Source of the DNA: Nitrospira sp.
Lineage (GTDB): Bacteria; Nitrospirota; Nitrospiria; Nitrospirales; Nitrospiraceae
Assembly: GCA_013140455.1 (NCBI GenBank)
Contig: JABFSU010000008.1
Location: 1-56,432, forward strand
Direction of reading: 5' to 3'
Length of the DNA stretch: 56,432 nucleotides
Shown here: positions 12,486 through 54,066 of the stretch, in pieces
Numbering within the stretch: position 1 is the stretch's first letter
Layout of the letters: every line of letters begins with the position of its first letter
Translations under genes and position numbers: made by a program
The notes under the pieces: model-generated
What the model saw: only the letters and a program-made list of their open reading frames with translations
Told to the model about the DNA's origin: nothing
The model's database searches: none

Positions 12486-12661
12486 AAGCTCTACGCACGT
12501 GCGAGACGGCCTCCGCCAGTCCCGATGGGGATTGCCCGTTTCTGCCCGAGGCTCTCCTGGGGGCATGGCAGACAGAGCTCCGAACAGTCACCGATCACCT
12601 GATCCTATGCTGTCACAGCTCATGGCAAGGAGAACACACGGTTGCTAAGGATGGTCCCGCG

Positions 12662-15273: not shown

Positions 15274-15428
15274 CCCATATTATTCATGACGGGTCCTGGC
15301 GAAATCGAAGCCAGGCAAGGGGCTAAGGGCACGAAGCTAGAGGCTGGGAGAACGTCACCCCCACAGAGGCGTTCATGAATAATGCGGGGTGTAGTGAGGG
15401 CCATGCTCCGGACAGCGGGAGGTATTCC

Positions 15429-15761: not shown

Positions 15762-15790
15762 TCCCGGTGTGGCGCGAGGAGATGGTAGTC

Positions 15791-17297: not shown

Positions 17298-17383
17298 TAA
17301 GCAGGTGTGAACCGTACGCTGAGCAAGACCATGACACATCAGACGCTGAACTCACATCACGTGCGATCAAGGATGGAGATCTT

Positions 17384-18295: not shown

Positions 18296-18333
18296 ACGGC
18301 CACCACTTCGACAATCCGGGCAAGGAGGTCTTT

Positions 18334-35541: not shown

Positions 35542-35755
35542 GAGTGCTCCACCGTACAGCGGATGTCATTCGCGGCACAATCGTACGGAAGAGGGAGACG
35601 GCGGTGCAGCGTGTAAACAAGCGTTACAGGCGGTGCGAACGCACTGTCGTGGACCGGCCGGCCGGGCAGGCCTGGGCACGAACATCGGTGCGGGTGAAAA
35701 GGTGAGAGGGGGCCGGTCGCAGCCGGACTCCCCTCGTAAACAGGAGGCAACGGTC

Positions 35756-37783: not shown

Positions 37784-37898
37784 GTCATTCCTCTTGATGT
37801 TGTATCGCTCGATGTCGTTCCATCCGTGTGTGCTGGCAATTTCTCCAGGACGGCGCCTCCACCCCGTCGGGCACTCGGCTTCGGATTGATGAGCACCG

Positions 37899-38558: not shown

Positions 38559-38598
38559 AACGGCAGTACTCCTTCTTCCTGGGCGACGCCGGTCCGGT

Positions 38599-40218
38599 TT
38601 ACGGAACGATGTCGAACCGGACCATCATCGCGTGGTCTTCATGCACCGTATTGTGGCAGTGCATGACATAGCGTCCCGTGAAATCTCGGAATTGAATGTA
38701 GATTTGCACCTCGTCGTTGGGGCCCAGTTCGACGACGTCGTGCCGGCCGATTTCCTCAGGCTCAGGCGTTTGCCCGTTGCGCAACAGGATTTGAAATTCT
38801 TCAAAGTGGATGTGGATCGGGTGCGACCAGCCGCCGCCGGCGTTTCTGAGCGTCCACACTTCCGGCACGCCCTGCGGAATGGTCGCGACAGGCGCATCGG
38901 GGTTGTAGAATTGTCCGTTGATCGCCCAAGCTCCCTGTGTCCGCTCGAACGTAAACGTCCGGCGAGGCGTCGAGGCGGTGATGTTGATCGGCGGCAGCGA
39001 CCGCATCGAAAGCGGGAGCGGAGGAGAATCCGCCGCCTCCAAGTCGACATCGAACCGAAGCACCTGTGTGCCATGCTGGAGAATTGTGCCGGTCGGGCCG
39101 CGTCCATCGACCTGTTCGAGACGATTTTCTAAGAACACCCGGTCGCCGATTTGGTATTGGGAGAAGTCAATCACGATGTCGCGGCGTTGGGCCACGGCGA
39201 CACGGGCGCTCTCGACGGTGATCGGTCCCGGTAAGAGATTCCCGTCGGTGGCGATCAACTCGAAGCTCTTGCCGTCGCTGAGAAAGAATTCATAGAATCG
39301 TGAAGGCCCGCCATCCAACAGCCGGAAGCGATACTTCCGTCTGGCCACTTTCAAAAAGGGCTGGATAGCGCCGTTGACGGTGATCTTGTCCCCGAGGAAG
39401 CCGTCGAAGCTGAACTGGTCGAAGACGAGTTGTCCCGCCGCATCGAATGTCTTGTCGGCGAACACGAGCGGAACATCATATTGACCGCTCGGGAGCTTCA
39501 AGGCTTGCGGATTCGGATCTTGTTCGTTGCCGGTGTCTTTGTGATCGAAGAACAAGACGAACCCGGCCAGGCCGCGGTAGGCGTTCGGGGCGGTGAAGTC
39601 CTTGCGATGGTCGTGGTACCAGAGCGTGCCGAGCGCTTCCCGTTCGTCGTCGCCTGCATACTTGCCGCAGTAGTGATGGTCGCGGAATTCCCCAAAATTC
39701 ACAAAGCCGATATTAGGGTTCCCGTCGCTTTCCCAGGCCGTGTGGAAGTTGTGCATATGTGTAATGATCTGCGGGATGCCGAATCCGACGTGATCGGGGG
39801 GCAGCTCGTTGTGGATACGGATGAGAAAGGGGGCTCCGTACCTGCCCGTGATCGTAGGGCCCGGGAAGATCCCGTTGTAGCCCCAAATCTTTGTCAGTGG
39901 CAGGTCCGGGTGAAAGGAATGCAATGCTTCCCTGACCCGGATTTCGTAATAGTGGATCGGCGGATACTCTGAATACCGTTGATGGTTGCCCGGCACAGGC
40001 GACGGGTCCAATTGGGCCGGCGGCACCGGCTGCAAGACGGGCGGCATCGGCAGCGCATGGACAAACGGCGTGGTCGGCGGGCTGACAGCCGGGATGTCCG
40101 GAGGACACGCCGGAGGAGTCTGCGAGGAGGCCGACCTGATGCCCTGTACGCCTCCGCTGATCAGCGCGGCTCCGCCGGTGATGAATCCCCATTTCAAGAA
40201 ATCTCGCTTGTTGATCAT
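38599..40218 (-). CDS. Multicopper oxidase (three-domain, Tat-exported)
   Basis: A 539-residue oxidase that would couple one-electron oxidation of a substrate to O2 reduction. The Tat-type signal NKRDFLKWGFITGGAALISGG is present, with KR in place of RR. All four copper motifs are in order: HMH at 154-156, HDH at 202-204, HPIHIH near 480, and HCHNTVHEDHAMM at 520-532 (type 1 Cys521 and axial Met). Relatives include CotA, bilirubin oxidases and phenoxazinone synthase; manganese oxidation is also known in this superfamily. Substrate cannot be told. ATG 40218 has GGGAGG 7 nt upstream. It sits between gspD and the SCO gene in one transcription direction, so it is a natural candidate for a type II secretion substrate. 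Confidence 0.92.
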   Translation of the reverse strand: MINKRDFLKWGFITGGAALISGGVQGIRSASSQTPPACPPDIPAVSPPTTPFVHALPMPPVLQPVPPAQLDPSPVPGNHQRYSEYPPIHYYEIRVREALHSFHPDLPLTKIWGYNGIFPGPTITGRYGAPFLIRIHNELPPDHVGFGIPQIITHMHNFHTAWESDGNPNIGFVNFGEFRDHHYCGKYAGDDEREALGTLWYHDHRKDFTAPNAYRGLAGFVLFFDHKDTGNEQDPNPQALKLPSGQYDVPLVFADKTFDAAGQLVFDQFSFDGFLGDKITVNGAIQPFLKVARRKYRFRLLDGGPSRFYEFFLSDGKSFELIATDGNLLPGPITVESARVAVAQRRDIVIDFSQYQIGDRVFLENRLEQVDGRGPTGTILQHGTQVLRFDVDLEAADSPPLPLSMRSLPPINITASTPRRTFTFERTQGAWAINGQFYNPDAPVATIPQGVPEVWTLRNAGGGWSHPIHIHFEEFQILLRNGQTPEPEEIGRHDVVELGPNDEVQIYIQFRDFTGRYVMHCHNTVHEDHAMMVRFDIVP

Positions 40219-40648
40219 GTCACATCCTCCCAAGGAACCAATGTCGTTCTAATCGACGTGCCGGATTCAGTTCTTCGTGATGGCCGTTCTTCTTGTCCTG
40301 CATGCCGCCGCTGTTGCAAAGTTGGTGCTAGGTGGCAGGACGCGTGAATCACGGCTATTTCATGTGACGGCACGGGGCGCACCGTTCCGGTGTAAAAAAA
40401 TGTGTCACACCCCGAGTGCGACTTGGACGGTGGGCGCGGACCCTGTGACGAGAGACCTCGCTGGTCTGCGACCTCGCGCGCGGTCGACGCACGCAGGAAT
40501 TGCTTTGGAAAACAGCAATCTGAATTCGACTGCGGAGGAGGACGTGTGAGGAGACGCCGCCGGCCTGGGACGGTGGGGAGCGCAAGAAACTGGAAGACCG
40601 TCAAAGATTGTTACAGCACGCGTCTGTGCGCCTGCCGTCCGATGTGTC
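40219..40648. other. Intergenic region between gspD and the multicopper oxidase gene
   Basis: About 430 bases without a supportable gene; the overlapping frames look like noise. It is long enough to carry its own promoter for the oxidase-SCO-peroxidase group, and one sigma-54-like site is seen in it (40315-40330, minus strand). Confidence 0.6.
40315..40330 (-). promoter_or_regulatory. Candidate sigma-54-like promoter of the multicopper oxidase gene
   Basis: Read on the minus strand the sequence is TAGCACCAACTTTGCA. It matches the -24/-12 pattern TGGCAC-N5-TTGCA except that the first G of the GG is A. It would start transcription near 40303, about 85 nt before the oxidase ATG. The G-to-A change is at a highly conserved base, so activity is doubtful. 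A sigma-54 regulator gene lies 2.8 kb away. Confidence 0.3.
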
Positions 40649-42283
40649 TCAGGGCTGGGGCTCTTTTCGGACTGAGGGAGTCAGGCGTTCGAGGATTTCT
40701 TGCTTCAGCCTGGTCGGTTCCTCGATTCGATTCTCCCGCTGCAGCATCAGCAATTCGTCGGCCTTTCTCTGATTGAGCGCCGTCACATCCTGATGGTCTT
40801 TGAGGATGTGCGGCGTCAGGAACACGAGTAGGCTGAGCTTTTCGACTTGCCTGGTTTGAGACTTGAACAACCATCCGAGCAAGGGGATGTCTCCGAGCAG
40901 CGGGATCTTCGATTCGCTGATAGAGAGGTTATCCCTCACGAGGCCCCCGATCACGACCGTTTGCCGGTCATGGGCGATCGTCGTGGTTTCCATCGCCCGC
41001 TTGGTGGTCGTCGGTCCCACGGGAACGGTCGCGTTGCCCGATCCGATGGTTTGGGCGACGTTTTCCGAGATGGCTGTGATTTCTTGCTTGATCTCCATTC
41101 GAATCAAGTCGTTGTCCAGCACTTGCGGGGTGAGTTCGAGGGTGACGCCGACATCTTTCCGCTCGATCGTGACGAGCGTCCCTCCCGTAATCCCTTGGGA
41201 CTGTCCGGTCGGAAACGGCCGATTCTCACCGACGACCATTTTGGCTTTCTGATTGTCCGAGGCCATCACTTGCGGGGTGGACAAAATATTGGTGTCGGAG
41301 AGGTTCATCAGAAAGTTCAGAAAGGCTCTCACGTTGACCGTATTGAGCACTGTCAGGGCTCCTCCTGAAGAGGCGCCGGCGGCCGTCCCGCCGATGGTTT
41401 GCGCCAGCGCGGCAAGATCTTCAGGCGCTCGATTCACCCCGGCGACGCCTTGGACGGACCCTCGCTGCCCCGCCGCAATCACCTGCGCGGGATCGGTGCC
41501 GATCTGGCGCAATCGGTCGACGGACACCTCCAGGATCACGGCTTCCACGAACACCTGGCTGCGCGGCGTGTCCAGCGAGTGAAGGACCGATTGCAGTTTG
41601 GCATAGGACAATTTCGTCGCCGTGATGACGACGGAGTTGGTGGCTTTGTCGGCGAGCACTTGAATCGGCCCGTCGAATTCCCCTGCCGGCCGCATGAGCG
41701 GCCGGGCGCCCGGCACCTGCGGAGAGGCCTGCGCCTTGGTCGCCAGCGTGGTCAAAATTGCGGCCACTTCTCCCGCGTTGGCATGGTGCAGCTTGTAGAC
41801 AAACACGCCCCGCTCCGACGGCACGTCGGCCAGATAGACGATTTGAACGATGTTGCCCATGGGGACGGTCGTCAGCCGGTTGACGGCCAGCGTGGCCAGA
41901 AACATGTTGTACGCCTGCTCGACGGTCACCATGTCGGGAGAATACAGCGTGATTTTGCCCATGGCTTTCTTGACTGTGTCGTCGATGACGAAGTTCTTGC
42001 GCGTCAGATCGCTCATGAATTTGACGAAGACCGGGAACTCCACTTCGGTGAAATCGATCTTGGCTCGTCCGGTCCCGGCGGCGCCGTTCTCCGCGCGCGA
42101 GGCCTCCGGCCATGCGGCGCCAAGGGTCAGGAAAAAAGTCAGGAAGAGGAGCAGCGGAGCGGCGAGGCTCCAGGCGACTGGCCGATCAGCGTTGCGCGTG
42201 TGACGCGCGGCGCCGTCGGCGGCATGAGGGCGGCGAAGGCCGGCGTGATCGTGCCTGCGGAACGTGGGTCGGCGTGGGTTCAT
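40649..42283 (-). CDS. gspD: Type II secretion secretin GspD
   Basis: Outer-membrane channel of 544 residues, shorter than the common 650. A long N-terminal extension precedes a hydrophobic signal (SLAAPLLLFLTFFLTLGAAW). The N0-like domain has KIDFTEVEFPVFVKFMSDLTRKNFVID. One or two N domains follow (VFVYKLHHANAGEVAAIL; QVLADKATNSVVITAT). The secretin core has STPQVMASDNQKAKMVVGENRPF, VGVTLELTPQV, VVIGGLVRDN and LLGDIPLLGWLFKS. At least one N domain fewer than usual. The ATG overlaps the gspC stop (ATGA). Confidence 0.93.
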   Translation of the reverse strand: MNPRRPTFRRHDHAGLRRPHAADGAARHTRNADRPVAWSLAAPLLLFLTFFLTLGAAWPEASRAENGAAGTGRAKIDFTEVEFPVFVKFMSDLTRKNFVIDDTVKKAMGKITLYSPDMVTVEQAYNMFLATLAVNRLTTVPMGNIVQIVYLADVPSERGVFVYKLHHANAGEVAAILTTLATKAQASPQVPGARPLMRPAGEFDGPIQVLADKATNSVVITATKLSYAKLQSVLHSLDTPRSQVFVEAVILEVSVDRLRQIGTDPAQVIAAGQRGSVQGVAGVNRAPEDLAALAQTIGGTAAGASSGGALTVLNTVNVRAFLNFLMNLSDTNILSTPQVMASDNQKAKMVVGENRPFPTGQSQGITGGTLVTIERKDVGVTLELTPQVLDNDLIRMEIKQEITAISENVAQTIGSGNATVPVGPTTTKRAMETTTIAHDRQTVVIGGLVRDNLSISESKIPLLGDIPLLGWLFKSQTRQVEKLSLLVFLTPHILKDHQDVTALNQRKADELLMLQRENRIEEPTRLKQEILERLTPSVRKEPQP

Positions 42284-42819
42284 CGTGCCTCTCGCGGTTG
42301 GGGGGGCGCGGTTGTCAGCGCCGGTACGTCGAGTTTCGGGCTCGCGGAAGCGAGCCATTCTTCCTGCCGTCCTTCTCGAATCAGGATGCGCTCATTCTGA
42401 ATATCCGCCAGTTCACCGATCTGAAAGATTCGTTCGCGCACGCGGAAGAGCCCCTGCTTTTTGCTGGTGAGATCTTCGACGATGGCGACGCCGCTCCCGT
42501 GTTCTCGCTGCACGGTTCCGATCAGACTGAGCTTTCGCGAGAGATTCAGCCCTCCCTCCACTCGAACCCCGGGTTGCGCGCCGTCCGCGACCGGGAGGGG
42601 CTCCGGGGTAACGGGGAACAATTTGCGGCTGAGGATGGCCTCCGCGTGTTTCCGCGCGCGCGCCGGCTCCGCGTTTCGCGCCTCCGGTCCTGCGGCTGCC
42701 GGTGTGTCCGCCGGCGCGGTTTCAATCGGAGCGCGGTGAAACCGCTGGACCGCGCCGTGCGCGAGCAGCCCGCCGACGGCGCAGGCAATGATGATCTGAA
42801 GGCTTCGATAGCGAGTCAT
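42280..42819 (-). CDS. gspC: Type II secretion protein GspC
   Basis: A 179-residue inner-membrane protein that bridges to GspD. One N-terminal helix (LQIIIACAVGGLLAHGAV) is followed by a linker and an HR domain (LSLIGTVQREHGSGVAIVEDL...GLFRVRERI). No PDZ domain is present, so it is a short GspC. It is the first gene of the cluster. ATG 42819 is preferred; GTG 42837 is also in frame. Neither has a strong ribosome site. Confidence 0.82.
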   Translation of the reverse strand: MTRYRSLQIIIACAVGGLLAHGAVQRFHRAPIETAPADTPAAAGPEARNAEPARARKHAEAILSRKLFPVTPEPLPVADGAQPGVRVEGGLNLSRKLSLIGTVQREHGSGVAIVEDLTSKKQGLFRVRERIFQIGELADIQNERILIREGRQEEWLASASPKLDVPALTTAPPQPREAR

Positions 42820-43119
42820 CTTTAATTGCGTCGTCACACGAAATTGCGAGCTGCCGGTCTTGTCTCTCTCACGATCTCCACGTGACGGCAGACGTTTGCC
42901 GCAGTGTATGCGCGTCGGGCGCCCTCGCGACAGTCTTCAGAAGGATGGGTTCCCCCTTCGAAAGAAGGGCCTACGAATGGCTGATTGCCGATGCCGAAAG
43001 TGCAGGCTTATGGTGGGTTCCGAAGCAACGGGCCCGGCGGACGAGCGAGGCCGATGGTGAAATCTTTTAGATCGCACAAGGTTTATCGCACACAGTTCAA
43101 GGGGGGAGCGCACGGTATT
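42820..43119. other. Divergent intergenic region between gspC and the sigma-54 regulator
   Basis: About 300 bases separating two diverging genes, so it should hold promoters for both. A small hairpin CCCTTC-GAAA-GAAGGG lies near 42953-42968. No GG-N10-GC site fits either direction. Short frames here look like noise. Confidence 0.5.
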
Positions 43120-44508
43120 ATGAAAGCACAGCACATGAGCGAGCTGCCGGTCAGAGTCGTGATGATCGAAGCCTCGGAGTCTTTGTGTGAGCAGGTTCAC
43201 CAAGGTGTGCGCGAGGTCTGCCATGTCGAATGGGGAACCGTACCCGCGGACGTCCTCCGGCTGGTCAGGGCGGTGGCCCCGCACATCGCGCTGCTCGACG
43301 CCGATCTGTTCAAGACGCCGGAGGGGTTCGGCGAGGCGGCGCGCGTCATTCAGGAACTCAAGCGCCTGCAGCCCGCGCTCAAAATTATTTGCACCAGCGG
43401 AGCCGGGATGGAATGCGCGCGGGCCGTCGCGCCGCTCGGCGTCTACGATGTGGTGACCAAGCCGGTCGAGGCCGGCATTCTCGTCCGGCTGATTCGCAGA
43501 GCCTGCTGGCTCTCTGCGGCGGAGTGCCATGGCGGCGCCGCCCATCGCGCGCCGGCGTCCGAGGCCTCCGAAGCCTCCGAAGAGATGATCGGCACCGGTG
43601 AAGGCATTCGACGGGTCTTCACCGCGATCAGAAAGGTCGCCACGACCGATCTGCCCGTGCTGATTACCGGAGAGAGCGGCACCGGGAAGGAATTGACGGC
43701 CAAGGCGATCCACGAGCGGAGCGGTCGCAAGGACCACCCCTTCGTCGCCATCAACTGCGGAGCCATTCCAGACACCCTCATCGAGTCGGAGCTCTTCGGG
43801 CATGAACGCGGCGCCTTCACCGGGGCCGTGCAGCAAAAGAAAGGCAAGGTCGAAGCGGCTCAAGGCGGGACGTTGTTTCTCGACGAAATCGGAGAAGTGC
43901 CCATTGCCCTCCAAGTGAAACTGCTGCGCTTTCTTCAGGAGCATCGTTTCGAACGGGTCGGTGGCCGCCAGGCCATCACGATCGACGTGCGCGTGATCGC
44001 CGCGACGAACGTGAATCTGAAAGACGCCATCGCGCGGGGCCGTTTCCGGGAGGATCTCTACTACCGCTTGGCGGTCATGCACATTCATCTTCCTCCGCTC
44101 CGGGATCGCAACGGGGACGTGCTGCTCATGGCGTCGGTCTTCCTCAGCCAGCTTGCGCACCAGCAGGGCAAGCGGGTCAAAGGATTTTCAGACGACGCCA
44201 TTCGCGCCATGAAAGCGTATCCCTGGCCGGGGAACGTCCGCGAGTTGCTGAACAAGTTGCGCCGCGGTGTGGTCATGGCTGAGGGGCCGTATGTGACGGC
44301 GAGGGATTTGGAGCTTTCCACGGGGGAAGAGGCCGTCTCACCGGAACCCTTAGGCCGTCTGCGAGAAAAGATCGAAGTCGATTTCCTCTCGCAGGCATTG
44401 GCTCGCCATCACGGCAACCTGAGCAAGGTGGCGCGGGATCTGGAAATCAGCCGGCCGACGTTGTATCGCCGGTTGCAACGGTATGGATTAGTCCGGAGAC
44501 CCGAGTAA
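43120..44508 (+). CDS. Sigma-54-dependent response regulator
   Basis: A 462-residue NtrC-type activator. Residues about 9-130 form a receiver domain with acceptor Asp60 (IALLDADLF), Thr92 and Lys114 (VTKPV). The acidic pocket is reduced (MIEASES, where most read DD). Residues about 155-385 are the AAA+ domain: Walker A GESGTGKE (184-191), GAFTGA loop (231-236) that contacts sigma-54, and Walker B TLFLDEIGE. The C-terminus is a Fis-type helix-turn-helix (GNLSKVARDLEISRPTLYRRL). Close in pattern to the PrsR group of exopolysaccharide regulators. ATG 43120 follows GGGGGGAG. The sigma-54 promoter 144 bp after its stop is its probable target. Confidence 0.92.
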   Translation: MKAQHMSELPVRVVMIEASESLCEQVHQGVREVCHVEWGTVPADVLRLVRAVAPHIALLDADLFKTPEGFGEAARVIQELKRLQPALKIICTSGAGMECARAVAPLGVYDVVTKPVEAGILVRLIRRACWLSAAECHGGAAHRAPASEASEASEEMIGTGEGIRRVFTAIRKVATTDLPVLITGESGTGKELTAKAIHERSGRKDHPFVAINCGAIPDTLIESELFGHERGAFTGAVQQKKGKVEAAQGGTLFLDEIGEVPIALQVKLLRFLQEHRFERVGGRQAITIDVRVIAATNVNLKDAIARGRFREDLYYRLAVMHIHLPPLRDRNGDVLLMASVFLSQLAHQQGKRVKGFSDDAIRAMKAYPWPGNVRELLNKLRRGVVMAEGPYVTARDLELSTGEEAVSPEPLGRLREKIEVDFLSQALARHHGNLSKVARDLEISRPTLYRRLQRYGLVRRPE

Positions 44509-44697: not shown

Positions 44698-45144
44698 ATG
44701 CATCGTATGAGGCGGTCAATGGTGACAAAGATCATGCAGCGAGCAGCCGACGCACAGCGGATGATAATTCTGGCGCTGGCGTTGACGGCCTGGCTTGCGC
44801 CGAACGCGCGTGCGTTCGGCGGAGAGGTGTGGCCGGCGACCCTCGACCACGAGGGGATGAGCCGCCCGGTGTTCCCGATGGGCGCCATGCCGGATGCATC
44901 AGTCCAGGCGATTGCGGGCACGCACGAGATGCCGGCGATCGACGCGTCACATTTTGTAACACTTTCACCGGAGGAACTCGCGACGATCGCCGGTATGGGC
45001 GTGATGCCGGAGGCGCCGGGGACCCCCACCACAGGGGTCGTACTGTGGGATGAACGACCGCAGGCCCCGGCGGTTGTCGGGGCAAACCTCAGTAGCGGAC
45101 AGCACAATCATCAGACCATCGGTGTGATGATCCAAGGGTTTTAA
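44698..45144 (+). CDS. Small exported protein with a GG-like motif and one repeat (Fap-operon first gene)
   Basis: Exported protein of 148 residues; a named family is not recognised. The signal peptide is RMIILALALTAWLAPNARA (about 21-39). Residues 89-100 read LSPEELATIAGM, fitting the double-glycine leader pattern L(-12) S(-11) E(-8) L(-7) I(-4) G(-2), though the last residue is Met. The C-terminus VVGANLSSGQHNHQTIGVMI resembles one unit of the N/Q repeats in the next four proteins. First gene behind the sigma-54 promoter, it stands where fapA stands in Pseudomonas, but I see no sequence match to FapA. Possible roles are a nucleator, chaperone or processed minor subunit. GAAGGG precedes the ATG. 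Confidence 0.75.
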   Translation: MHRMRRSMVTKIMQRAADAQRMIILALALTAWLAPNARAFGGEVWPATLDHEGMSRPVFPMGAMPDASVQAIAGTHEMPAIDASHFVTLSPEELATIAGMGVMPEAPGTPTTGVVLWDERPQAPAVVGANLSSGQHNHQTIGVMIQGF

Positions 45145-45183
45145 TGAGTCAGCTGACCGGAACGGAAGACGAATGGATTGGGC

Positions 45184-45220
45184 AAAGGAGGTGACGGGCC
45201 TCGTGACCGAGGGCCCCTAA
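45184..45220 (+). promoter_or_regulatory. Strong ribosome site with five-codon frame and hairpin in the operon leader
   Basis: AAAGGAGGTGAC (45184-45195) is a near-perfect complement of the 16S rRNA end. Seven bases later GTG opens a frame of five codons ending TAA at 45220. The same bases form a stem (45196-45203 with 45208-45216, one bulged G) over the GTG. No longer gene uses this site. It may control translation of the first subunit gene downstream, or be the relic of a lost gene. Confidence 0.35.
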
Positions 45221-45280
45221 ACAGGCACAGGGTGGAATCGAGTGAAGGAGAGACGTGAATTGAACCAGAGGAGGATCACA

Positions 45281-46066
45281 ATGCGTACAACGTGGGTTTC
45301 AATCGGAATCATGGCCGGGATCGCCATTATGGCTTCCCCCGTCCGTGCCGAGGTCGTCGTGGTGGGAGAAATCAACAAAGACCGCGATGTCACCGTGACG
45401 GAGACGATCGAGAAGGTCAAGACGGTGCTCATCAACGCAGATGTTGATATCGCGCTGGAAAAGGCGGCGGAGTCCTATGCGCATGTCAACCAGCTCAATC
45501 AGGGCAACGAGGCCTGCGAGAATTGCGCCGAGAAGGCGGATATTCTCAGAGCCGCGGCCAATTACAATTCAGGTGTCCTAAGCGTCAACCAAGCGGCCGG
45601 CAACATGAACAACCAGGGCAATGCCGTGGCGGTGTCGTTCGATCAGCCGGATGCGCAACCGTCGACGGGTCGTGGCTTTGCGGATGCCACAGCGGCGGCG
45701 CACCAGATCATGCTGGAGAACACGATCGATAGCCAGAACATCGGCTTTCGTCGCACGGAGATGACCGGGTCGATGAACTTCAATAACGGCATTGCGCATG
45801 CCAATCAAGCGGCGGGCAACATCAACAACCAGGCGAACAGCGTTTCCGTGGCGGTGTCGCTGGCTCCCGGCGTGGTTCTGTCCGAGGCCGATCTCGGCCA
45901 AGTCAACCGCGGGAACAGCGTGAAGGAAGTTGACGTCAACAAATCTGCGACGATCACGAATTCCCTCAACGGGAACATCGGCATCGTGGGTGTGAACCAA
46001 GCCAGCGGCAACAATGCCAACCAGGCGAACGTGGTGGCGTTTTCCGCCGCGGCGCGGTTTAACTAA
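45281..46066 (+). CDS. Three-repeat N/Q-rich amyloid-like subunit 1 (FapB/FapC-like)
   Basis: Secreted protein of 261 residues with a Sec signal (about 1-23, ending VRA). Three repeats lie at about 97-120, 168-193 and 232-257, each of the form NxGxxxxNQAxGNxNNQxNxVxV (for example VNQAAGNMNNQGNAVAVSF). Linkers separate them; the second has LSEADLGQVNRGNSV, also found in the following paralogues. A CENC motif is at 79-82; Pseudomonas FapB and FapC also carry CxxC, but near the C-terminus. The pattern of three repeats with linkers is that of Fap fibre subunits. Curli repeats differ (S-x5-Q-x-G). GAGGAGG lies 6 nt before ATG 45281. Which subunit nucleates and which forms the fibre cannot be told. 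Confidence 0.82.
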   Translation: MRTTWVSIGIMAGIAIMASPVRAEVVVVGEINKDRDVTVTETIEKVKTVLINADVDIALEKAAESYAHVNQLNQGNEACENCAEKADILRAAANYNSGVLSVNQAAGNMNNQGNAVAVSFDQPDAQPSTGRGFADATAAAHQIMLENTIDSQNIGFRRTEMTGSMNFNNGIAHANQAAGNINNQANSVSVAVSLAPGVVLSEADLGQVNRGNSVKEVDVNKSATITNSLNGNIGIVGVNQASGNNANQANVVAFSAAARFN

Positions 46067-46083
46067 GACGAGGAGGACGAAAT

Positions 46084-46860
46084 ATGAACAAGGTTGTGAC
46101 ATTTACCGTGGCGGCGCTGGCGATGGGCGGAGCAGCTATTGCCCAGGCCGATGTGACGGCGTTGGTCGGGGTGACCAAGGACGTCGTCATCGTCAACAGT
46201 GAGACCATTGAGATCAACAAGACCGTCGGTCTGAATGTGGTCGTCAACCAGAATCTCGACGGCGCGGCGGAGGCTCAGGCCATCGCCAGCGTCACGAATC
46301 TCGATAACGAGTACAATCTAACGGATGCCCGGTACAATTCTTCGTTGTTGAGGTCAGTGCTTGGGCATCAGGGTGTGCTCGGATTGAACCAGGACACCGG
46401 CAACATGGCCAATCAAGCCAACTTGTTGTCGGCCTCGACGACCGGAGTCGAAGGGAACAGGGGCACGTTCGCGAATGCGCAGGCGGAGGCGACCATGAAC
46501 ACCGGCGCCGGCGACAACAAGATCACGAACGTGATCGCGTCATCCACGATGACGGATTCCGTCAACCGCAACAACGGCATCATCGGGGTGAACCAGAGCA
46601 GCGGTAACATGATGAGCCAACTGACGGCGGTGGCGATGGCGATCGGGGCTGAATCCCGGATTGCGTTGTCCGAAGCCGCCTTGGGACAGACCACCAGCGC
46701 ATCCACGTTGACCCTCGACGGGACCCACAGCAGCGCCTCGATCCCCGGCTCGATCAACGGGAACGTCGGGATCATCGGCGTGAATCAATCTAGTGGCAAC
46801 AACGGAAACCAGGCCGTCAACGTCTCCGTTGCCGCGTCGTTCCTTCCCGGAACACGCTAA
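46084..46860 (+). CDS. Three-repeat amyloid-like subunit 2
   Basis: Secreted protein of 258 residues with a signal ending AIAQA (about 22). Repeats lie at about 96-118 (VLGLNQDTGNMANQANLL), 164-188 (IIGVNQSSGNMMSQLTAV) and 226-252 (IIGVNQSSGNNGNQAVNV). The shared block between repeats 2 and 3 is IALSEAALGQ. An N-terminal block LDGAAEAQAIASVTN recurs in subunit 3. There are no Cys. GAGGAGGACGAAAT precedes the ATG. It starts 17 nt after subunit 1 and is probably co-transcribed. Confidence 0.82.
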   Translation: MNKVVTFTVAALAMGGAAIAQADVTALVGVTKDVVIVNSETIEINKTVGLNVVVNQNLDGAAEAQAIASVTNLDNEYNLTDARYNSSLLRSVLGHQGVLGLNQDTGNMANQANLLSASTTGVEGNRGTFANAQAEATMNTGAGDNKITNVIASSTMTDSVNRNNGIIGVNQSSGNMMSQLTAVAMAIGAESRIALSEAALGQTTSASTLTLDGTHSSASIPGSINGNVGIIGVNQSSGNNGNQAVNVSVAASFLPGTR

Positions 46861-46893
46861 GCGCACCGTCAAGGATAAAGGAGGACTACAGAC

Positions 46894-47745
46894 ATGAAGA
46901 CATTACGCATTGCGGCAATCAGCGCGCTCGGCTTGGCGATGGTCGCAGGACCAGCTTTGGCTGAGGACTCGTTTGTGTTCGTCACGAGCGATATTCTGAA
47001 GACCAAGAGCATCTCTGTCACTGAGGACACGTATACCGATAAGTATGCGGACATCCGGGTGAACGGACTGTTCGCTCCGGAAGGCGCGGCGGAGGCGCAG
47101 GCTATCGCCAACGTGACGAATTCGGGAAACAGGGTCACTACCGGTGGGAGCGAGGCCACTCAGGATGTCGAGGCCCATGCGACGATCGACAGCACGGTGG
47201 CCGGTAATAAGGGCATCTTGGGCTTCAACCAGGATGCGGGTAACTCTGTCAACCAGGGCTACAACGTGGCCGTGTCCCTGTCGAACGTGAAGTCGGTGAC
47301 GGATGCGCAGTCGTGGGTTGATCAGCGCAACCAAGAAAACACAGTCAGAGCCACGTCGCATGACTATCTTGATGGTCAAGCCAGCAAGACGGCGACGATG
47401 AAGAATACGATCGGCGCAGACAGCGCCAGTGCGCATCAAGGGCTCATCGGCGTCAACCAGAACGTCGGGAACATGAACAACCAGACCAGCTCGGTGGCGC
47501 TGGCGCTCGGCGTGGGGGCGCAGGTCGCTCTGTCCGAGTCCGCGTTGGGCCAGGTCAACATGGGCAACAAAGTGTACGAAGTCGGCACCATGAAGACGGA
47601 CCTGATTGAAAACGCCATGAACTACAACTTGGGCACGGTTCAGGTCAATCAATCGGCCGGCAACATGAACAACCAGGGCTCGTCGATTGCCATCTCGGCT
47701 ACCGTCGCTCAAGCGACGTTGGTTCCGGCAGTCAGAGGGTTCTAA
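46894..47745 (+). CDS. Three-repeat amyloid-like subunit 3
   Basis: Secreted protein of 283 residues with a signal ending ALA (about 23). Repeats lie at about 105-129 (ILGFNQDAGNSVNQGYNV), 181-206 (LIGVNQNVGNMNNQTSSV) and 245-271 (TVQVNQSAGNMNNQGSSI). The shared VALSESALGQVNMGNKV lies between repeats 2 and 3, and EGAAEAQAIANVTN near the N-terminus matches subunit 2. The first linker is longest here, with a charged stretch DAQSWVDQRNQENTV. No Cys. A GC-rich hairpin follows the stop codon. AAAGGAGG precedes the ATG. Confidence 0.82.
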   Translation: MKTLRIAAISALGLAMVAGPALAEDSFVFVTSDILKTKSISVTEDTYTDKYADIRVNGLFAPEGAAEAQAIANVTNSGNRVTTGGSEATQDVEAHATIDSTVAGNKGILGFNQDAGNSVNQGYNVAVSLSNVKSVTDAQSWVDQRNQENTVRATSHDYLDGQASKTATMKNTIGADSASAHQGLIGVNQNVGNMNNQTSSVALALGVGAQVALSESALGQVNMGNKVYEVGTMKTDLIENAMNYNLGTVQVNQSAGNMNNQGSSIAISATVAQATLVPAVRGF

Positions 47746-47756
47746 TCGGTCATCCG

Positions 47757-47787
47757 GTCGGGCGGGAGCCTTGCGCTCCCGCCCGAC
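47757..47787 (+). terminator. 13-bp intercistronic hairpin
   Basis: GTCGGGCGGGAGC and GCTCCCGCCCGAC pair perfectly over the loop CTTGC, right after subunit 3. No T-run follows, so it is more likely to stabilise the upstream mRNA or attenuate than to end transcription fully. That would favour expression of subunits 1-3 over subunit 4 and the export genes. Its core GGCGGGAGC recurs in the hairpin at 49882-49919. Confidence 0.6.
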
Positions 47788-47825
47788 TCTCCGGGTGGGT
47801 TGTGCAAAGGGATTTAAAGGGATTT

Positions 47826-48626
47826 ATGGACGGACGAGACAGAGGACTCACATCGTTGATGCGGTGGCAAGTCATGGCCGGGGCCATGATTGTGTCGTTT
47901 GGGTGTCTGGGCTTCGGATTGGACGCCGTTGCGCAGGTTTCGGGGTCCGGAGGCCTCTCAACTGGTACAACGAGTTCCAGTACCATTGTAGTGGAAACGG
48001 AAGAGATCCATTTGGCCGGCACAGGCGTCGTGTCCAGTACGACAGTGGCTGCGCAAGTCATCGCCGACAATCAGATCGAACAACTCGGCGTCATCGGCAG
48101 GGTGTTGCTGCAGGATGCCTTTCACGGCAACGCCGGAATTGTGAACGTGAACCAGGAAGCCGGCAACGTGAACAACCAGGCCAATGTGCGGGTCCTGGCA
48201 TTCATGGCGACGGAAGTCGGGTCGATCATCGGGGCCTTGAATCTGGCGGTTTCTCAGAACCTGACGAACAACACGGTCGTGTCGGACGGGGGCGAGCGCA
48301 GCACGCGCATCGCCAACAGTTTCGGCAATGCGGCCGGCATCGTGGGGGTCAATCAAACCGCCGGGAACGCCAATAATCAGCTCAACGTTCTGGGGATGGC
48401 GGTCGGCGACACGCTGGGGCCGGATGCGTTGCCGATCAACGATACGACGCTCGGGCAGGTGTCCAGCGGCAAACGGGACGCGCCGGTCAATAATAGCGCT
48501 CGCGCGGATGTGATCGAGAATTCATTTAGTAATTTTCGCGGGATTGCGCAAGTCAATCAGTCGTCGGGCGATCTGAATTCGGTCGGCAATGTCTTAGGTG
48601 TTTCGTTTCAGGTTTTCAACCGGTAA
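47826..48626 (+). CDS. Three-repeat amyloid-like subunit 4
   Basis: Secreted protein of 266 residues with a long signal (WQVMAGAMIVSFGCLGFGLDAVAQ). Repeats lie at about 101-127 (IVNVNQEAGNVNNQANVRV), 167-193 (IVGVNQTAGNANNQLNVLG) and 236-262 (IAQVNQSSGDLNSVGNVLG). The third is the most degenerate. The shared linker block is reduced to INDTTLGQVSSG. It is the most diverged of the four and may be a minor or capping subunit (inference). ATG 47826 follows AAAGGG; the leader contains a 10-bp tandem repeat AAAGGGATTT. Confidence 0.78.
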   Translation: MDGRDRGLTSLMRWQVMAGAMIVSFGCLGFGLDAVAQVSGSGGLSTGTTSSSTIVVETEEIHLAGTGVVSSTTVAAQVIADNQIEQLGVIGRVLLQDAFHGNAGIVNVNQEAGNVNNQANVRVLAFMATEVGSIIGALNLAVSQNLTNNTVVSDGGERSTRIANSFGNAAGIVGVNQTAGNANNQLNVLGMAVGDTLGPDALPINDTTLGQVSSGKRDAPVNNSARADVIENSFSNFRGIAQVNQSSGDLNSVGNVLGVSFQVFNR

Positions 48627-48634
48627 GGAGTTCC

Positions 48635-49315
48635 ATGAAGGCTTGCTTCGTCGTTGCGATGCTGATCTGGGCCGTCTGCGCGGATTCCGCCTGGGCGAAT
48701 CCTCCGATTCCACTGCCGGGCGGGTCGATGCTGGCCAATGTTCCGGTCAAGAGCCTCGTCGAACTCCGGTTTCAGAATATCGAACGGCAGGCCTACGACA
48801 TCAGTTGCGGGGCCGCCGCGATGGCGACGCTGCTCAAGTACTATTATCAGGAAGATGTTCGTGAGCAGAGTCTCGTCGATGCGATGATCGCGGTGGGCGA
48901 CAAGGACAAGATCCAGCAGGAGGGGTTCTCGCTGTTGGAAATGAAACGGTTTGCCGAGCAGCGGGGATATGTGGCCAACGGATATCGTATTAGTGACGTA
49001 CAGAAGCTGGCCAATCTCAAGATCCCGTATGTGGCGTTGGTCAACGTTCGTGGGTATGCGCATTTCGTGATCGTCAAGGGAATTGCAGACGGGGAAGTCT
49101 TCATTGCCGATCCGGCCTACGGCAATCGCTCCCGGACGCTCGAAAGTTTTGCCAATGAATGGAACGGTGTCATCCTGGTCATTTTGCATTCGAGCCGGGA
49201 GGGGAACAGCGACTTTACGATGGACACACTGCCTAAGGCGTCGATGGGGCAGGTGGTGCCGATTATTCAGCGGTTAGGCAGCGCTATCTGGCCACGAGGG
49301 GCTGCCGAGTATTGA
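48635..49315 (+). CDS. C39-type cysteine peptidase (FapD-like)
   Basis: Exported 226-residue papain-like peptidase with a signal of about 22 residues. Catalytic Cys58 is in YDISCGAAAMATLL, His143 in GYAHFVIVKG, and Asp159 in FIADPAYG; Gln52 fits the oxyanion position. In bacteriocin exporters C39 domains cut after double-glycine leaders. As a stand-alone exported protein between amyloid subunits and a barrel gene, this matches FapD, which is needed for Fap fibre formation in Pseudomonas. Candidate substrates with the leader pattern are encoded at 44698 and 49376. AAGGAG lies 6 nt before the ATG. It begins 8 nt after subunit 4. Confidence 0.9.
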   Translation: MKACFVVAMLIWAVCADSAWANPPIPLPGGSMLANVPVKSLVELRFQNIERQAYDISCGAAAMATLLKYYYQEDVREQSLVDAMIAVGDKDKIQQEGFSLLEMKRFAEQRGYVANGYRISDVQKLANLKIPYVALVNVRGYAHFVIVKGIADGEVFIADPAYGNRSRTLESFANEWNGVILVILHSSREGNSDFTMDTLPKASMGQVVPIIQRLGSAIWPRGAAEY

Positions 49316-49375
49316 TAAGACGTGAAACAGCAAGTTCTCGATCGATAATGTCTTGATCGTTTGGAGGGAGAGAGC

Positions 49376-49846
49376 ATGTTGAAGCAGGTGAGTATGTGGA
49401 TGTTGGCCATGATGCTCGGAGCCGTTCCCGCGGCCGTCGCCGGCCCGCTGCACGATCTGTTGCCGTCTGATGAGTGGGCGACTCCGTTGTCTGAGCCGGA
49501 AATGGCCGGGATCCGTGGAGGATTCAACGGGCTGGCGTTCAACGTGATGTTCTCGGGATACTATACAAATGTCGGTCAGGTCGAAGGGAGTCTGGCTGTG
49601 GATACGACCGGTACGCTGACGACCGGGCCTGTGCCGACCCCGACTCCATCTGCCACTGTGCAAAACGGGCAGGTGAACATTTCAACGAGCGTCGGGAACT
49701 TTAACGGCTCCAGCGGCATTTTCCAGATTACGCAGGTGCCGGGGAATTTCAACGTCGTGAATAACAATCTATTCGTGCAGATTGCGATGGTGAATCTCCA
49801 GCCGGGTAGCCGGCTTCCGAGTCTGGCGGACTTGTTCAGACCTTGA
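49376..49846 (+). CDS. Exported small protein with a canonical double-glycine motif (FapE position)
   Basis: A 156-residue protein with a Sec signal (about 1-22). Residues 38-49 are LSEPEMAGIRGG, which match the C39 leader consensus at every key site: L-12, S-11, E-8, M-7, I-4, G-2, G-1. It sits after the signal peptide, so any cut would occur in the periplasm. The C-terminal half has a repeat-like NGSSGIFQITQVPGNFNVVN, close to the subunit repeats. The gene lies between the peptidase and the barrel gene, as fapE does. I see no direct sequence match to FapE. GGAGGGAG precedes the ATG. Confidence 0.72.
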   Translation: MLKQVSMWMLAMMLGAVPAAVAGPLHDLLPSDEWATPLSEPEMAGIRGGFNGLAFNVMFSGYYTNVGQVEGSLAVDTTGTLTTGPVPTPTPSATVQNGQVNISTSVGNFNGSSGIFQITQVPGNFNVVNNNLFVQIAMVNLQPGSRLPSLADLFRP

Positions 49847-49881
49847 GCGTCTTGTCATCGTATCGGATTTCTATCGTGCGC

Positions 49882-49919
49882 GCTCCCGCCGGTTTTCCCT
49901 TCGGAGGCTTGGCGGGAGC
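49882..49919 (+). terminator. 9-bp hairpin before the barrel gene
   Basis: GCTCCCGCC and GGCGGGAGC pair perfectly over a 20-nt loop, with CTTTGG after. A weak terminator or attenuator between the double-glycine protein and the barrel gene. A weak GG-N10-GC site (49957-49970) could give the barrel gene its own start. The same core sequence occurs in the hairpin at 47757. The rest of 49847-50116 holds nothing else. Confidence 0.45.
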
Positions 49920-50116
49920 CTTTGGATGATCTCCTTCAATACCTCCGGTTGTCGGCGGGACTTTTCCTGCCGGTTGCCGCTTGTGCCGCGCCTGCTCCGT
50001 GGCGAAGTCCGGCTTTTTTCTTGATCACTCCTTGATCTGTGATAGATCTAACGGCACAGGTCCGGCGAGTGGAATCTTGCCGCCGTGACATCTCTTTGAA
50101 TCCAGGAGGGTCCGCT

Positions 50117-51436
50117 TTGAGTTCACTTCCGGTGCTTCGTTATGTGCGTGCCGCCCTATGCAGTCTCAGTTCAATTCTTGCCGTATGCGCCGGGACCGTT
50201 CCGCTCCTTTCGCTCCCGGCCGAGGCCGCTCAGACACTCGTGGGCCAAAGTCCGGTTTCGCAGCCGCCGAATGCCTTGCCTGTTCCCCAGGGGCCGGAGT
50301 CGATCGGCGACGGCGCAACTTCCGGGCCTGCGCTGCCTGTGCCGTCGGCTCCGCAGCCGCTCGATGCGCCCCCCTCATCGCAAGGGCCGGAACCGATGAA
50401 CTCGGGCGCGCTGAGCGCGCCGATGGCTCCGTTGAAGGCGCTGTCATCGTCGGTCATGAGTGAGCCGGAGCGGCCCAAATCTGAAAAGCCCATCGACCAG
50501 CTTTCCCTTTCCCGAGGGGCCATTCTGCTGCCCAAAGGCATGCTGCAAGTGGAGCCGTTCGCGGACTACACGCGCATCTCGTCCGATCGCGTCGCCATCA
50601 ACGGATTTTCGGTATTCGAAGCCATCGTGGTCGGGACCATCCGGGTCGATCGCGTGTTCCGCGACATTTACACGACCGGAGTCAATGTTCGGTACGGACT
50701 GCTCAACCGGCTTCAACTGGAAGCCCGCGTACCATACGTGTACCGGCAGGATCGGGAGTTGACCGGAATCGGTACCACTCAGGAAGCCGACCGCACCATC
50801 CACCACGCCGACATCGGCGATGTGGAAGGCTCGCTGGTTTACCAAGCGGTGATCGGCACGGATGTGTTGCCTGACGTCCTGCTGCGGCTCAAGGGCCGCG
50901 TCCCCACGGGGACCGATTCATTCGAAGTCCCGACGACCATCGGACAGGGGGGCGAGGTCCGGCTGTTGAAGACCCCGACGGGGAACGGCTTTTATACCGT
51001 AGCGCCCGGCATTCAAATGGTCTGGCGCACGGACCCGGTCGTCTATTACGTGGGTGGAAATCTTCTGATGAATCTGGAGCGCAATGTCGGCGGCGCGGTC
51101 GGCATCGTGACGCCGGGCAATACGACGGAGTTTTTTTTCGGTTTGAACCTCTCGGTCAGCGAACGGGTCTCGCTGAACATGACGTTCTACGATTCGTGGA
51201 CCGATAATACGCGCCAGAACGGCAGACGGATCGCCGGGACCTCCTTCAACAGCGGGCTGCTGTTACTCGGTACCGCGTTGTCGCTGAATCCCACCACGAC
51301 GCTTCTGGTGACCGGGGGGATCGGGATCACGAAGGAGTCGCCTGACTTCCAGCTGGTCGTCAGCCTGCCCTTGACGTTCAGATTGCCGAGTGCCTTGCAA
51401 CTGCCGGACAAGCTGCCCTGGCTGTCCGGATCCTGA
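50117..51436 (+). CDS. Outer-membrane beta-barrel protein (FapF-like exporter)
   Basis: A 439-residue outer-membrane protein with a signal (LCSLSSILAVCAGTVPLLSLPAEA). About 100 residues of Pro/Ser-rich linker follow (to about residue 130). Then come alternating beta strands to the C-terminus: ISRGAI-like start, GVNVRYGLLNRLQLEARVPYVY, LLRLKGRVPTGTDSF, YYVGGNLLMNL, ERVSLNMTFYDSW, TTLLVTGGIGI. FapF, the Fap subunit exporter, also has an N-terminal periplasmic segment before its barrel; here no coiled coil is obvious. TTG 50117 is chosen because AGGAGG stands 7 nt before it; GTG 50039 gives 26 unlikely extra residues. Eight consecutive T bases encode the FFF at 51131-51138. Confidence 0.78.
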   Translation: MSSLPVLRYVRAALCSLSSILAVCAGTVPLLSLPAEAAQTLVGQSPVSQPPNALPVPQGPESIGDGATSGPALPVPSAPQPLDAPPSSQGPEPMNSGALSAPMAPLKALSSSVMSEPERPKSEKPIDQLSLSRGAILLPKGMLQVEPFADYTRISSDRVAINGFSVFEAIVVGTIRVDRVFRDIYTTGVNVRYGLLNRLQLEARVPYVYRQDRELTGIGTTQEADRTIHHADIGDVEGSLVYQAVIGTDVLPDVLLRLKGRVPTGTDSFEVPTTIGQGGEVRLLKTPTGNGFYTVAPGIQMVWRTDPVVYYVGGNLLMNLERNVGGAVGIVTPGNTTEFFFGLNLSVSERVSLNMTFYDSWTDNTRQNGRRIAGTSFNSGLLLLGTALSLNPTTTLLVTGGIGITKESPDFQLVVSLPLTFRLPSALQLPDKLPWLSGS

Positions 51437-51600: not shown

Positions 51601-52716
51601 TTACTGAAGGGCTTCCTGCGGAGCGGCCTCCTTGGGGTTCTTGGGCGATGAGGATCTGTCAGGTGCGGCGCTTTCGGCAGCGGCTGGTTGAGAGGCCTCC
51701 AGCCGCCGGACCGCGGACTCCGCAAATCGGTTGTCGACGTATCCGTCGAGTTTCGGTAGGACTTTCAGAATTCCCCCTTCTTTGAGGCCCCATCCGTTGT
51801 ACTCTGCATCCGCCGTATCGCTGGCCGTCCAGATCGGCCGATCATACTTCGTCATGGCGATCCAGGACTTGGTGAGTTCCGGGGTGACGGCGCGCAACCC
51901 CTGCCGGTGAAAGAAGATGGCCAGGAGGCGCGCGGCGTCGTCTGGGTCTTGCTGAATGTACTTGAGCGATTTCACCCAGGCGTTCGCAAAACGCTGGACG
52001 GTGTCCGGTTCCTTCTCAATCAGCTCCGCCCGTACGATGACGGGCGCGGCGGCGATTAATCCGAGCAGGTTGGTCAGATCTTCCGCCCCCATCAACACGT
52101 GGGCGTTGCCGCCTTTCATCACAGCCGAGGTAAAATGCCGGGATTCGAAAATACCGTCGGCCAGGGGCGTCTTCTGGTCGAGCGCTTTCGTCAGGGAGTC
52201 GGGGGGGAGAAGCTTGATCGTCACATCGGAGGGGCGCAGCTTGAATTTGTTCAGGAGGCGAATGAGAACCGGATGGGCTTCCGATCCAACGCCGATGGCG
52301 ATCGTTTTCCCTTTGAGGTCGGCCACCGATTTCACGGCCGGTTGCTGATCCGAGATCACCAGCTCCATTTGAGTGCCCCATCCGTTCAACGAGAGGATCC
52401 GGAGCGGCAGCTTGAGCGCGGCCATGATCAGGCCTCCTCGTTGCGATACGGCGGCAATATCCGTCGAGCCCGAGCTGAGCGACCCGATAAGCGCTTCCGT
52501 CGAGCTGATGGTCAAGCCGTTGACGACCAGATGCTCCTGGGAAAACAGGCCGCGCTCTATCGCCACGATCGCCGGCAAGGCGTCCCAGCCGCTGCTGTAG
52601 GCGAGGCGGATGAGTTTCCAATCCCCGGCATGGCTCCATACCGGGGTGAGGACGATACTTGCGATCACCAACAGACGGTATACGGACGATTTGGCTTGAG
52701 TCACTCTTGCCTCCAT
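51601..52716 (-). CDS. ABC-type substrate-binding protein (NMT1/SsuA-like)
   Basis: Periplasmic binding protein of 371 residues. The signal is YRLLVIASIVLTPVWSHA. The fold is that of nitrate/sulfonate/thiamine-precursor binding proteins: IRLAYSSGWDALPAIVAIERGLF, then STEALIGSLSSGSTDIAAV, then VADLKGKTIAIGVGSEAHPVLI. The last 40 residues are Pro/Ala/Ser-rich. No permease or ATPase gene is near, so the ligand cannot be inferred. ATG 52716 was chosen because it precedes the signal; longer readings to 52875 add a polar, improbable stretch. Confidence 0.82.
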   Translation of the reverse strand: MEARVTQAKSSVYRLLVIASIVLTPVWSHAGDWKLIRLAYSSGWDALPAIVAIERGLFSQEHLVVNGLTISSTEALIGSLSSGSTDIAAVSQRGGLIMAALKLPLRILSLNGWGTQMELVISDQQPAVKSVADLKGKTIAIGVGSEAHPVLIRLLNKFKLRPSDVTIKLLPPDSLTKALDQKTPLADGIFESRHFTSAVMKGGNAHVLMGAEDLTNLLGLIAAAPVIVRAELIEKEPDTVQRFANAWVKSLKYIQQDPDDAARLLAIFFHRQGLRAVTPELTKSWIAMTKYDRPIWTASDTADAEYNGWGLKEGGILKVLPKLDGYVDNRFAESAVRRLEASQPAAAESAAPDRSSSPKNPKEAAPQEALQ

Positions 52717-52925
52717 TTCAGTTACGTCGAGGTTTTGCGCGGACCTGATGCTGCGCGCATGGCGGCCGATGCCATTTCGGTCCTGGCCGATGACGCCGTC
52801 CACTGTCTCTGTTTTAGCTTGAAACGGTGTACAGTCAAGCCGATATCGATTTTCACCACCTGCGTAGGAAGCCACAGCTGCCCGTCCTCCGCAGTCGTCT
52901 GTTACGGAGAGTGAATGAACCCGCT

Positions 52926-54066
52926 AGGAGCCTGTCCGAGTAATGGCTGACAATGCGTAACAAGACGTATATTCACGGTAGGGCCAGCAGCGATTCGGTC
53001 AGCCGACGAGGGGTGTGGCCGATACGTGTGCCAATGAGTGGAATTGCGTTCGATGGTGAGGGATTCATCCTCTCGCTCCGACCAATTTCAGCATGTTGTG
53101 TACGCTACAGAGCAAGCTCCACTCCCCAGCGACCTGCGACAGACCCCACAGCAAGAACTGTCTGAATCCGCGCGCCTGTTTGATCTGACCAAACACGGGT
53201 TCGACCACCTGCTTGCGGAACCGATAGCGACGGCGATACCCCGCGCGTTTCAGGCGGATCTTCATCGCGTGGACTCGTGTCCGCGGGACCGTCTTCCGCC
53301 TGCCGGTGGCCGAGGGCGTGCCATGCTGTTGCCGCCCCGTCGCAACATAGCCGCGAACGTGGCGGCGAGCCAATGCTGAGAGATTGGGCTCGGAGCAATA
53401 CCCGGCATCCGCCGAGAGTTCCCGCGCCTGCCGGCCCATGTTCGCTTTGATGGACGCCAGCATCGGCTCGAGTTGGTGCGTATCGCTGACCTGACTCGTC
53501 AGCCCATGGGCCACAATCACCTGATGCGCAGCATCGACGGCCGCTTGGGCGTTATAGCCTTGGATGAATCCGTCCTGCGCCTTCATAATCCGGCTGTCTG
53601 GATCGGTGAAATTGCGCTGTGCGCGGTCGTGGGGCGTGCCTGGAGGATTCTTCGCGGGGCGGCCTCGTCGAGAGCGATCCGATGGGTGCTCGTCCTCTCG
53701 CGCGTCGCTGGCCGCAGCCTTCGCCAGCCACTGGGCTACCTCGGCCGCCAGCGCCGGCTCGGCGGTCTTCATCCGGCTGTAGCTCATCGCCTTATGTTTG
53801 GAGGCATTCGCTCGGATCTTCGTTCCATCCAATGCGACGTGCCCCAAGCTCACCAGTCCCGCCTTCTGGCACAGCTGGAGCACCTGCGTGAACCGCTCGC
53901 CCAGTGCCGGCAAGTGACGCTTCCGAAAGTCGCTGATCGTGCGAAAATCCGGACTCTGCCGCGCCGTCACGGCCATGAAATCCACCCGCTCATGACAGGC
54001 CTTGGCGATCCGCCGCGACGCGTAGAGCCCTTGGCTGTAGGCCTACAGCAGCAAGGCGACCATCAT
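52926..54066 (-). mobile_element. Truncated IS1182-type insertion sequence
   Basis: One end is visible near 52926 (AGGAGCCTGTCCGAGTAA). The other end and the first part of the transposase are missing: at about 54066 the sequence passes directly into the start of a response regulator gene. So the element inserted into, or recombined with, that gene and then lost its 5' portion. The 209 bases between 52717 and 52926 hold only leader sequence. Confidence 0.72.
53065..54066 (-). pseudogene. IS1182-family transposase, truncated with a nonsense codon
   Basis: An open stretch of 306 codons from 53985 carries the family hallmarks: ISDFRKRHL, VALDGTKIRANASKHKAMSY with the first Asp, ELSADAGYCSEPNL with the second, and VVEPVFGQIKQARGF with the Glu. 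Upstream, VALLL-stop-AYSQGLYASRRIAKACHERV continues the family in frame, but a TAG at 54045-54043 replaces the expected Tyr codon. About 60-80 N-terminal residues are gone. It is inactive. Confidence 0.85.

Follow-up and report, generated by a model that had tools for sequence, protein, structure and literature searches.

We identified a gene cluster at positions 44707 to 51436 of a contig from Nitrospira sp. (GenBank assembly GCA_013140455.1, contig JABFSU010000008.1; the window is the whole analyzed stretch of 56,432 nucleotides) that, with a probability we put at roughly 85%, and judging from sequence and predicted models, encodes, in a nitrite-oxidizing bacterium, a complete and divergent Fap functional-amyloid operon whose subunits have grown in number and in which subunits 1 to 3 would be FapC-like builders of the fiber body and subunit 4 a FapB-like nucleator. 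All genes of the cluster lie on the forward strand, namely an A-like gene, four subunit genes, and FapD-like, FapE-like and FapF-like genes, and the cluster is an expanded and reordered form of the known Fap system outside Proteobacteria. The four subunit genes, each encoding three repeats, occupy 45281..46066 (subunit 1), 46084..46860 (subunit 2), 46894..47745 (subunit 3), and 47859..48626 (subunit 4, where this is the likely start and the open reading frame (ORF) opens at 47802); all four ORFs have a signal peptide and three have a strong Shine-Dalgarno sequence. The host genome holds a nitrite oxidoreductase alpha subunit scoring 787 bits to Kuenenia NxrA in the PDB, and we therefore regard the host as a nitrite oxidizer; a search of the same genome for AmoA gave no match, but no control matched either.

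An initial annotation, made by a model from the letters alone, had proposed an amyloid system of the Fap type that exceeds Pseudomonas in its number of subunits, and exactly three units in each of the four proteins, and both proposals held up, with 12 units in total. Their similarity lies well beyond chance: a profile of these 12 units detects three units in every subunit of the relatives described below (E 1e-22 to 1e-54), a profile of the four proteins matches FapC in the PDB (2e-06), and the subunits match the NCBIfam FapC and FapB models with E values from 1e-8 to 6e-17. The motif given earlier for the unit, GIx3NQx2GNxNNQxNxV, is a fair consensus, but its full string occurs in a single unit (subunit 1, unit 2), while the kept positions are NQxxG (12/12 units), GN (11/12), and a Gln five residues past the invariant Gly (11/12). 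In AlphaFold2 models of subunits 3 and 4, built on a 12-row alignment, the predicted cores superpose on the FapC UK4 fibril (9u4u) over 150 of 150 residues, at Z 16.3, 2.1 Å and 25% identity for subunit 3 and Z 15.1, 2.3 Å and 27% identity for subunit 4. The next structural matches of both models stay below Z 4, and Foldseek agrees on the FapC fibril (E 4e-06); the two models thus have, as predictions, the three-layer Greek-key solenoid of Fap systems. Directly downstream on the same strand follow a FapD-like C39 cysteine peptidase (48635..49315; Peptidase_C39 4e-23, C39_FapD 5e-47), a FapE-like protein that has a double-glycine leader (LSEPEMAGIRGG) and, at the C terminus, a single Fap repeat of the FapB-repeat-3 type (49376..49846), and a FapF-like outer-membrane barrel (50117..51436, where the ORF opens at 50039 and the TTG at 50117 has a ribosome-binding site; NCBIfam FapF 1e-33, PDB FapF 5o67 E 3.6e-27).

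Relatives of the operon are sparsely spread. Among 79 genomes of the genus, such subunits occur only in this one, a genome of 3.8 Mb in 143 contigs in which the cluster is the sole one of its kind. In a phylum sample of 395 genomes, five matched, and apart from the window two of these were strong matches; searching 269 genomes of the class with FapD added G449, from another genus of the same family (FapD 55% identical), and a scan of GTDB genomes added a Candidatus Methylomirabilota metagenome-assembled genome (MAG; FapD 65% identical). The subunits number two in the Methylomirabilota MAG and in G311, three in G449, at least three in G259, and four in the window, with a chimeric 467-residue ORF of G259 (L019) taken as merged subunits 2 and 4, the result of a deletion or of a collapse in assembly, and divided in two for the trees. 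Operon order is kept in the window, G449 and the MAG, and the partial G311 and G259 loci agree with it; such a patchy distribution hints at horizontal transfer or extensive loss. Nitrospirota have been listed among Fap phyla (PMC12822426), and our literature search returned no paper naming Nitrospira together with Fap. With subunit 3 as the query, the IMG/VR viral collection yielded no relative, and plasmids searched with a canonical FapB gave nothing; searching plasmids with FapD gave 29 records, with Fap-like repeats in two Photobacterium stretches and one from Aeromonas.

By sequence, the four subunits are not equal, genes 1 to 3 reading as FapC-like and gene 4 as FapB-like. The distinction lies in the third repeat, at the core Gln position equivalent to Gln227 of UK4 FapC, the mutation of which prolongs the fibrillation lag (PMC12392863). 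Nine of nine B-type proteins (five from this clade, plus four gammaproteobacterial FapB named by position, two of these also score-checked) have V, L, I, T or S there, V in the case of subunit 4, whereas all 12 C-type proteins have Gln (one-sided p 3e-6, for sequences that are not independent); at the same position of the other 44 units we counted 43 Gln and one Glu. Counterparts of subunit 4 with the same third-repeat signature are present in all relatives, and NCBIfam scores favor the same split, weakly. Subunit 1 is set apart by a CxxC (C79, C82) in the layer-1 loop, past the front strand of that layer, which we otherwise found only in subunit 1 of G449 and G259; it is placed differently from the CxxC of Pseudomonas FapC, which sits outside the fiber core (PMC6173800).

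Several observations weigh against this assignment. The AlphaFold2 confidence is modest (predicted local distance difference test scores of 62 for subunit 3 and 60 for subunit 4, from 12 sequences). The NCBIfam equivalog cut-offs were all missed (FapC 62 of 195 bits, FapB 48 of 190, FapD 160 of 330, FapF 116 of 700), and we hence speak of a divergent system and not of orthologues in the strict equivalog sense. At the level of repeats, subunits 1 to 3 are closer to canonical FapB than to canonical FapC; in the subunit tree, this clade's C-like and B-like proteins come together (support 100/100) before either canonical group joins; and forcing gene 4 together with canonical FapB costs 18 log units (approximately unbiased (AU) test, p = 0.08). 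Given this cost, the B/C split may be independent, convergent, or blurred by gene conversion.

The initial annotation had read the array as tandem duplication of a whole three-repeat gene and had pointed to the grouping of the units as the way to check the order of events. In the window alone, the 12 units gave p = 0.068 for grouping by position and p = 0.19 for grouping by protein, which favors neither decisively. In a tree of 41 units from five loci, however, we counted 9 changes of position (shuffled mean 19.7) versus 33 changes of protein, and as the units group by position, the triplication is older than the gene duplications. The proposed order therefore stands, but not a single local event making all four genes, because gene 4 falls in a distinct and older FapB-like group with members in every relative, and in another genus subunits 1 and 3 each have their own orthologue. 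A clade of window subunits 1, 2 and 3 was rejected (AU p = 0.0017), whereas one of window subunits 2 and 3 with G449 subunit 2 was not (p = 0.54), and in full-length trees subunit 1 pairs with G449 subunit 1 and subunit 3 with G449 subunit 2 (bootstrap 85-87), indicating that one duplication or more took place before the two genera separated; the placement of subunit 2, a long branch, is unsure in these trees. As an exception to grouping by position, in the C-like protein of the Methylomirabilota MAG all three units cluster together, being closer to one another than to the units of other proteins, a sign of homogenization within that gene. Subunit 1 unit 1 and subunit 3 unit 3 share a short DNA tract (34/36 bases), which suggests gene conversion. 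We read the expansion as successive tandem copying of a FapC-like gene that already carried three repeats, from one to two to three copies, leaving subunit 1 with a CxxC at the surface.

An improbable but not negligible alternative is that one gene was repeatedly duplicated locally in this lineage, making the four subunits interchangeable dosage copies that know no FapB/FapC distinction. The family-wide sequence style of all four, their tandem arrangement, the conversion hinted at by the shared tract, and the union of C-like and B-like proteins before canonical FapB or FapC all favor this account, but it conflicts with the occurrence of gene 4 counterparts in all relatives with their third-repeat signature, with the rejection of a clade of subunits 1 to 3, and with the restriction of CxxC to subunit 1 orthologues. 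Slightly less probable still, some of subunits 1 to 3 could serve as surface adhesins or decoys, borrowing the Fap fold and secretion route, with only one subunit building the fiber; the NNQ positions are indeed eroded in some units of subunits 2 and 3 (MSQ, GNQ, VNQ) and subunit 1 has its CxxC loop, whereas the core Gln is present in 9/9 units of subunits 1 to 3 and subunit 3 was modeled as a complete three-layer core. That the proteins belong to a different beta-solenoid family, curli-like or of the ice-binding type, and merely resemble Fap is very improbable, as a weak structural match to CsgA (Z 3.5) is set against FapC as the sole strong match and against FapD, FapE-like and FapF partners in the operon.

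The segment between units 2 and 3 reads VLSEADLGQVNRGN, ALSEAALGQTTSAS, ALSESALGQVNMGN and PINDTTLGQVSSGK in subunits 1 to 4, with LGQ invariant, and the blocks of all four proteins align without doubt. The initial annotation had taken it for a second conserved block outside the repeats, not known from FapB or FapC; this did not hold, since its Q-x4-N aligns with Q113 and N118 of FapC UK4, inside the cryo-electron microscopy core, and the block of subunit 1 (LSEADLGQVNRGN, 45878..45916, forward strand) is read as the front strand of layer 3 and not as a linker. The four-protein profile places LGQvnsGNk opposite iYQesKdNK of Pseudomonas UK4 FapC, and counting back from residue 161 of that protein gives Gln 113, Asn 118 and the invariant Gly 149, with a spacing of 36 as in the window. 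The layers of the FapC core span residues 45-96, 110-161 and 173-234, with Asn53, Asn118 and Asn181 in a turn hydrogen-bond network (PMC12392863). In many of the subunits, as in canonical FapC, a Q-x4-N also stands ahead of unit 1 and of unit 2: it precedes 7/12 units in the window (3.2 expected), 16/29 in the relatives (8.0), and 8/12 in canonical FapC (2.8); as it is not enriched in canonical FapB (1/12), the mapping rests on FapC. The N-terminal blocks noted earlier are confirmed (AAEAQAIA(S/N)VTN for subunits 2 and 3, AAESYAHVNQ for subunit 1), and given the Q-x4-N before units 1 and 2, this N-terminal block, ahead of unit 1, and that between units 2 and 3 are one element at two positions. 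In the model of subunit 3, the predicted strand that ends unit 2 continues through the LSESALGQVN block (E194-223). The LSEAxL half of the block is perhaps a trait of this clade; when canonical FapB and FapC were scanned for LSEAxLGQ with a scoring matrix, no clear match appeared.

The operon resembles the Pseudomonas fapABCDEF system, as represented by FapC UK4 (9u4u), in its three imperfect repeats per subunit with one predicted Greek-key layer each, in the same Asn/Gln core positions, and in an operon that unites homologues of FapD and FapF with a FapE-like protein. It differs in having four subunits instead of two, with the FapB-like gene last, beside fapD, and not first, in repeats with VNQ instead of the VNV of FapC, and in short linkers. 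While published surveys describe fap operons as near-invariant in gene order and subunit number and name their first repeat gene fapB by position (PMC12392863, PMC12822426), and 94.5% of 1172 clusters in the literature contain two fapBC genes (PMC12392863), the window departs from the canonical order fapA-B-C-D-E-F and runs A-like, C, C, C, B, D, E, F. With the order reversed and the major subunit multiplied, naming by position would mislabel the window genes. The Methylomirabilota MAG (PMV_4.88; L025) shares the order of response regulator, A-like, C-like, B-like, D, E and F, but has two subunits only. Like the window, the G449 operon (L127) has a CxxC subunit 1, a gene of the subunit 2/3 type, a fourth-gene counterpart, D, E, F, and an NMT1-like gene downstream, but holds three subunits, and its A-like gene is doubtful. 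Acinetobacter FilB/FilC (NCBIfam NF050078, NF050079), where the C39 peptidase and the FapF-like barrel score as distant relatives, is by contrast named as a putative pilus system and is likened here via peptidase and barrel alone. The series of two, three and four subunits offers a natural experiment in the growth of the subunit set of a functional amyloid.

We suggest that each secreted chain would fold into three stacked Greek-key layers, one per repeat, and that chains would stack end to end into a cross-beta fibril, with the FapB-like subunit starting the fiber, the FapC-like subunits elongating it and the different chains co-polymerizing. The FapD-like peptidase would trim the double-glycine leader of the FapE-like protein, and perhaps also act on the A-like protein, and after trimming, chains would cross the outer membrane via FapF. 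According to reviews, FapB nucleates and FapE anchors (PMC12822426). The match of the FapE-like protein to the NCBIfam FapB model spans positions 145-190 of 190, which is the third repeat, and we found no match to the NCBIfam FapE model. The B-type third-repeat profile scored FapE-type proteins best in 8/8 cases (four of this clade, four canonical), and in 7/8 when only profiles from the other clade were used, with low scores for the canonical ones; ordinary units in the same test mostly favored the second-repeat profile. From these sequence likenesses we infer a docking of FapE onto the FapB face formed by the third repeat, an interface absent from the literature consulted that may already be known; the FapE-like single layer, being like the Gln-less third layer of FapB, would probably dock on that face and keep the fiber at the cell. 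More speculatively, and with the odds rather against it, the match of the two layers may amount to a polarity rule general to Fap fibers, in which FapE docks at the FapB third layer and growth proceeds in the opposite direction, the fiber of this clade being a hetero-amyloid with three specialized major subunits, one bearing a CxxC. The matching layers turn the question of nucleation and anchoring into a testable interface.

Upstream on the forward strand, a sigma-54-type response regulator of the PEP_resp_reg-like kind (42985..44508; Sigma54_activat 1e-73; TIGR02915 467 bits, short of its cut-off of 502.6) is the probable regulator of the operon, and the same kind of gene lies upstream in three relatives (L025, L127, L020). 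Matches in a sigma-54 promoter scan were at or near chance, with no site of two or fewer mismatches between the regulator and the A-like gene in the window. The A-like gene (44707..45144, forward strand) encodes a small secreted protein of 145 residues in the fapA position, without a match in Pfam, NCBIfam or PHROG and without a demonstrated similarity to FapA, and its pattern LSxxEL...GxG...(V/I)(V/I)(L/I)WDE is conserved in L019, L020 and L025. Such first genes of the operon form a small, undescribed family (LSxxEL...GxG plus (V/I)(L/I)WDE) that, beside the window gene, includes L019 3493-3852, L020 9368-9661 and L025 3372-3671; it is possibly a second FapD substrate or a replacement of FapA. 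Acidithiobacillus has a comparable LWDE protein, with a clean GG leader, encoded downstream of FapD (L056 9209-9631). The guanine-cytosine content is 59% in the operon and 60% in the window. An NMT1-like substrate-binding protein gene (51601-52875) adjoins the operon in convergent orientation, and in G449 it lies downstream on the same strand (L127 11807-12844). Just past the operon is a transposase-like ORF (53065-53985), as read from sequence alone. The window is rich in surface structures, with a Tad/Flp pilus cluster (RcpC, secretin, ATPase) and type II secretion/type IV pilus genes at 12464-19644 and 33724-42837.

A FapF search within the genus turned up a compact single-repeat sister system rather than lost fap operons. 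This compact relative, common in the genus of the window and in many Proteobacteria (Dyella, Luteibacter, Variovorax), is a protein of 105-185 residues with one Fap-like repeat that adjoins a FapD-like peptidase (L023 13813-14190, L024 10093-10470, L128 6462-6797, L137 8483-8827; also L027-L094); within the genus it has a double-glycine leader and a FapF-like barrel nearby. In a Kiloniellales MAG (L026 36-3305), a protein of 1089 residues has 16 detected Fap-like repeats of the QQNNGxxN type and lies beside a one-repeat protein and a FapD-like peptidase. Finally, G161 holds two tandem, very similar single-repeat proteins of 134 residues (L021 9074-9478 and 9522-9926), followed by a C39 peptidase.

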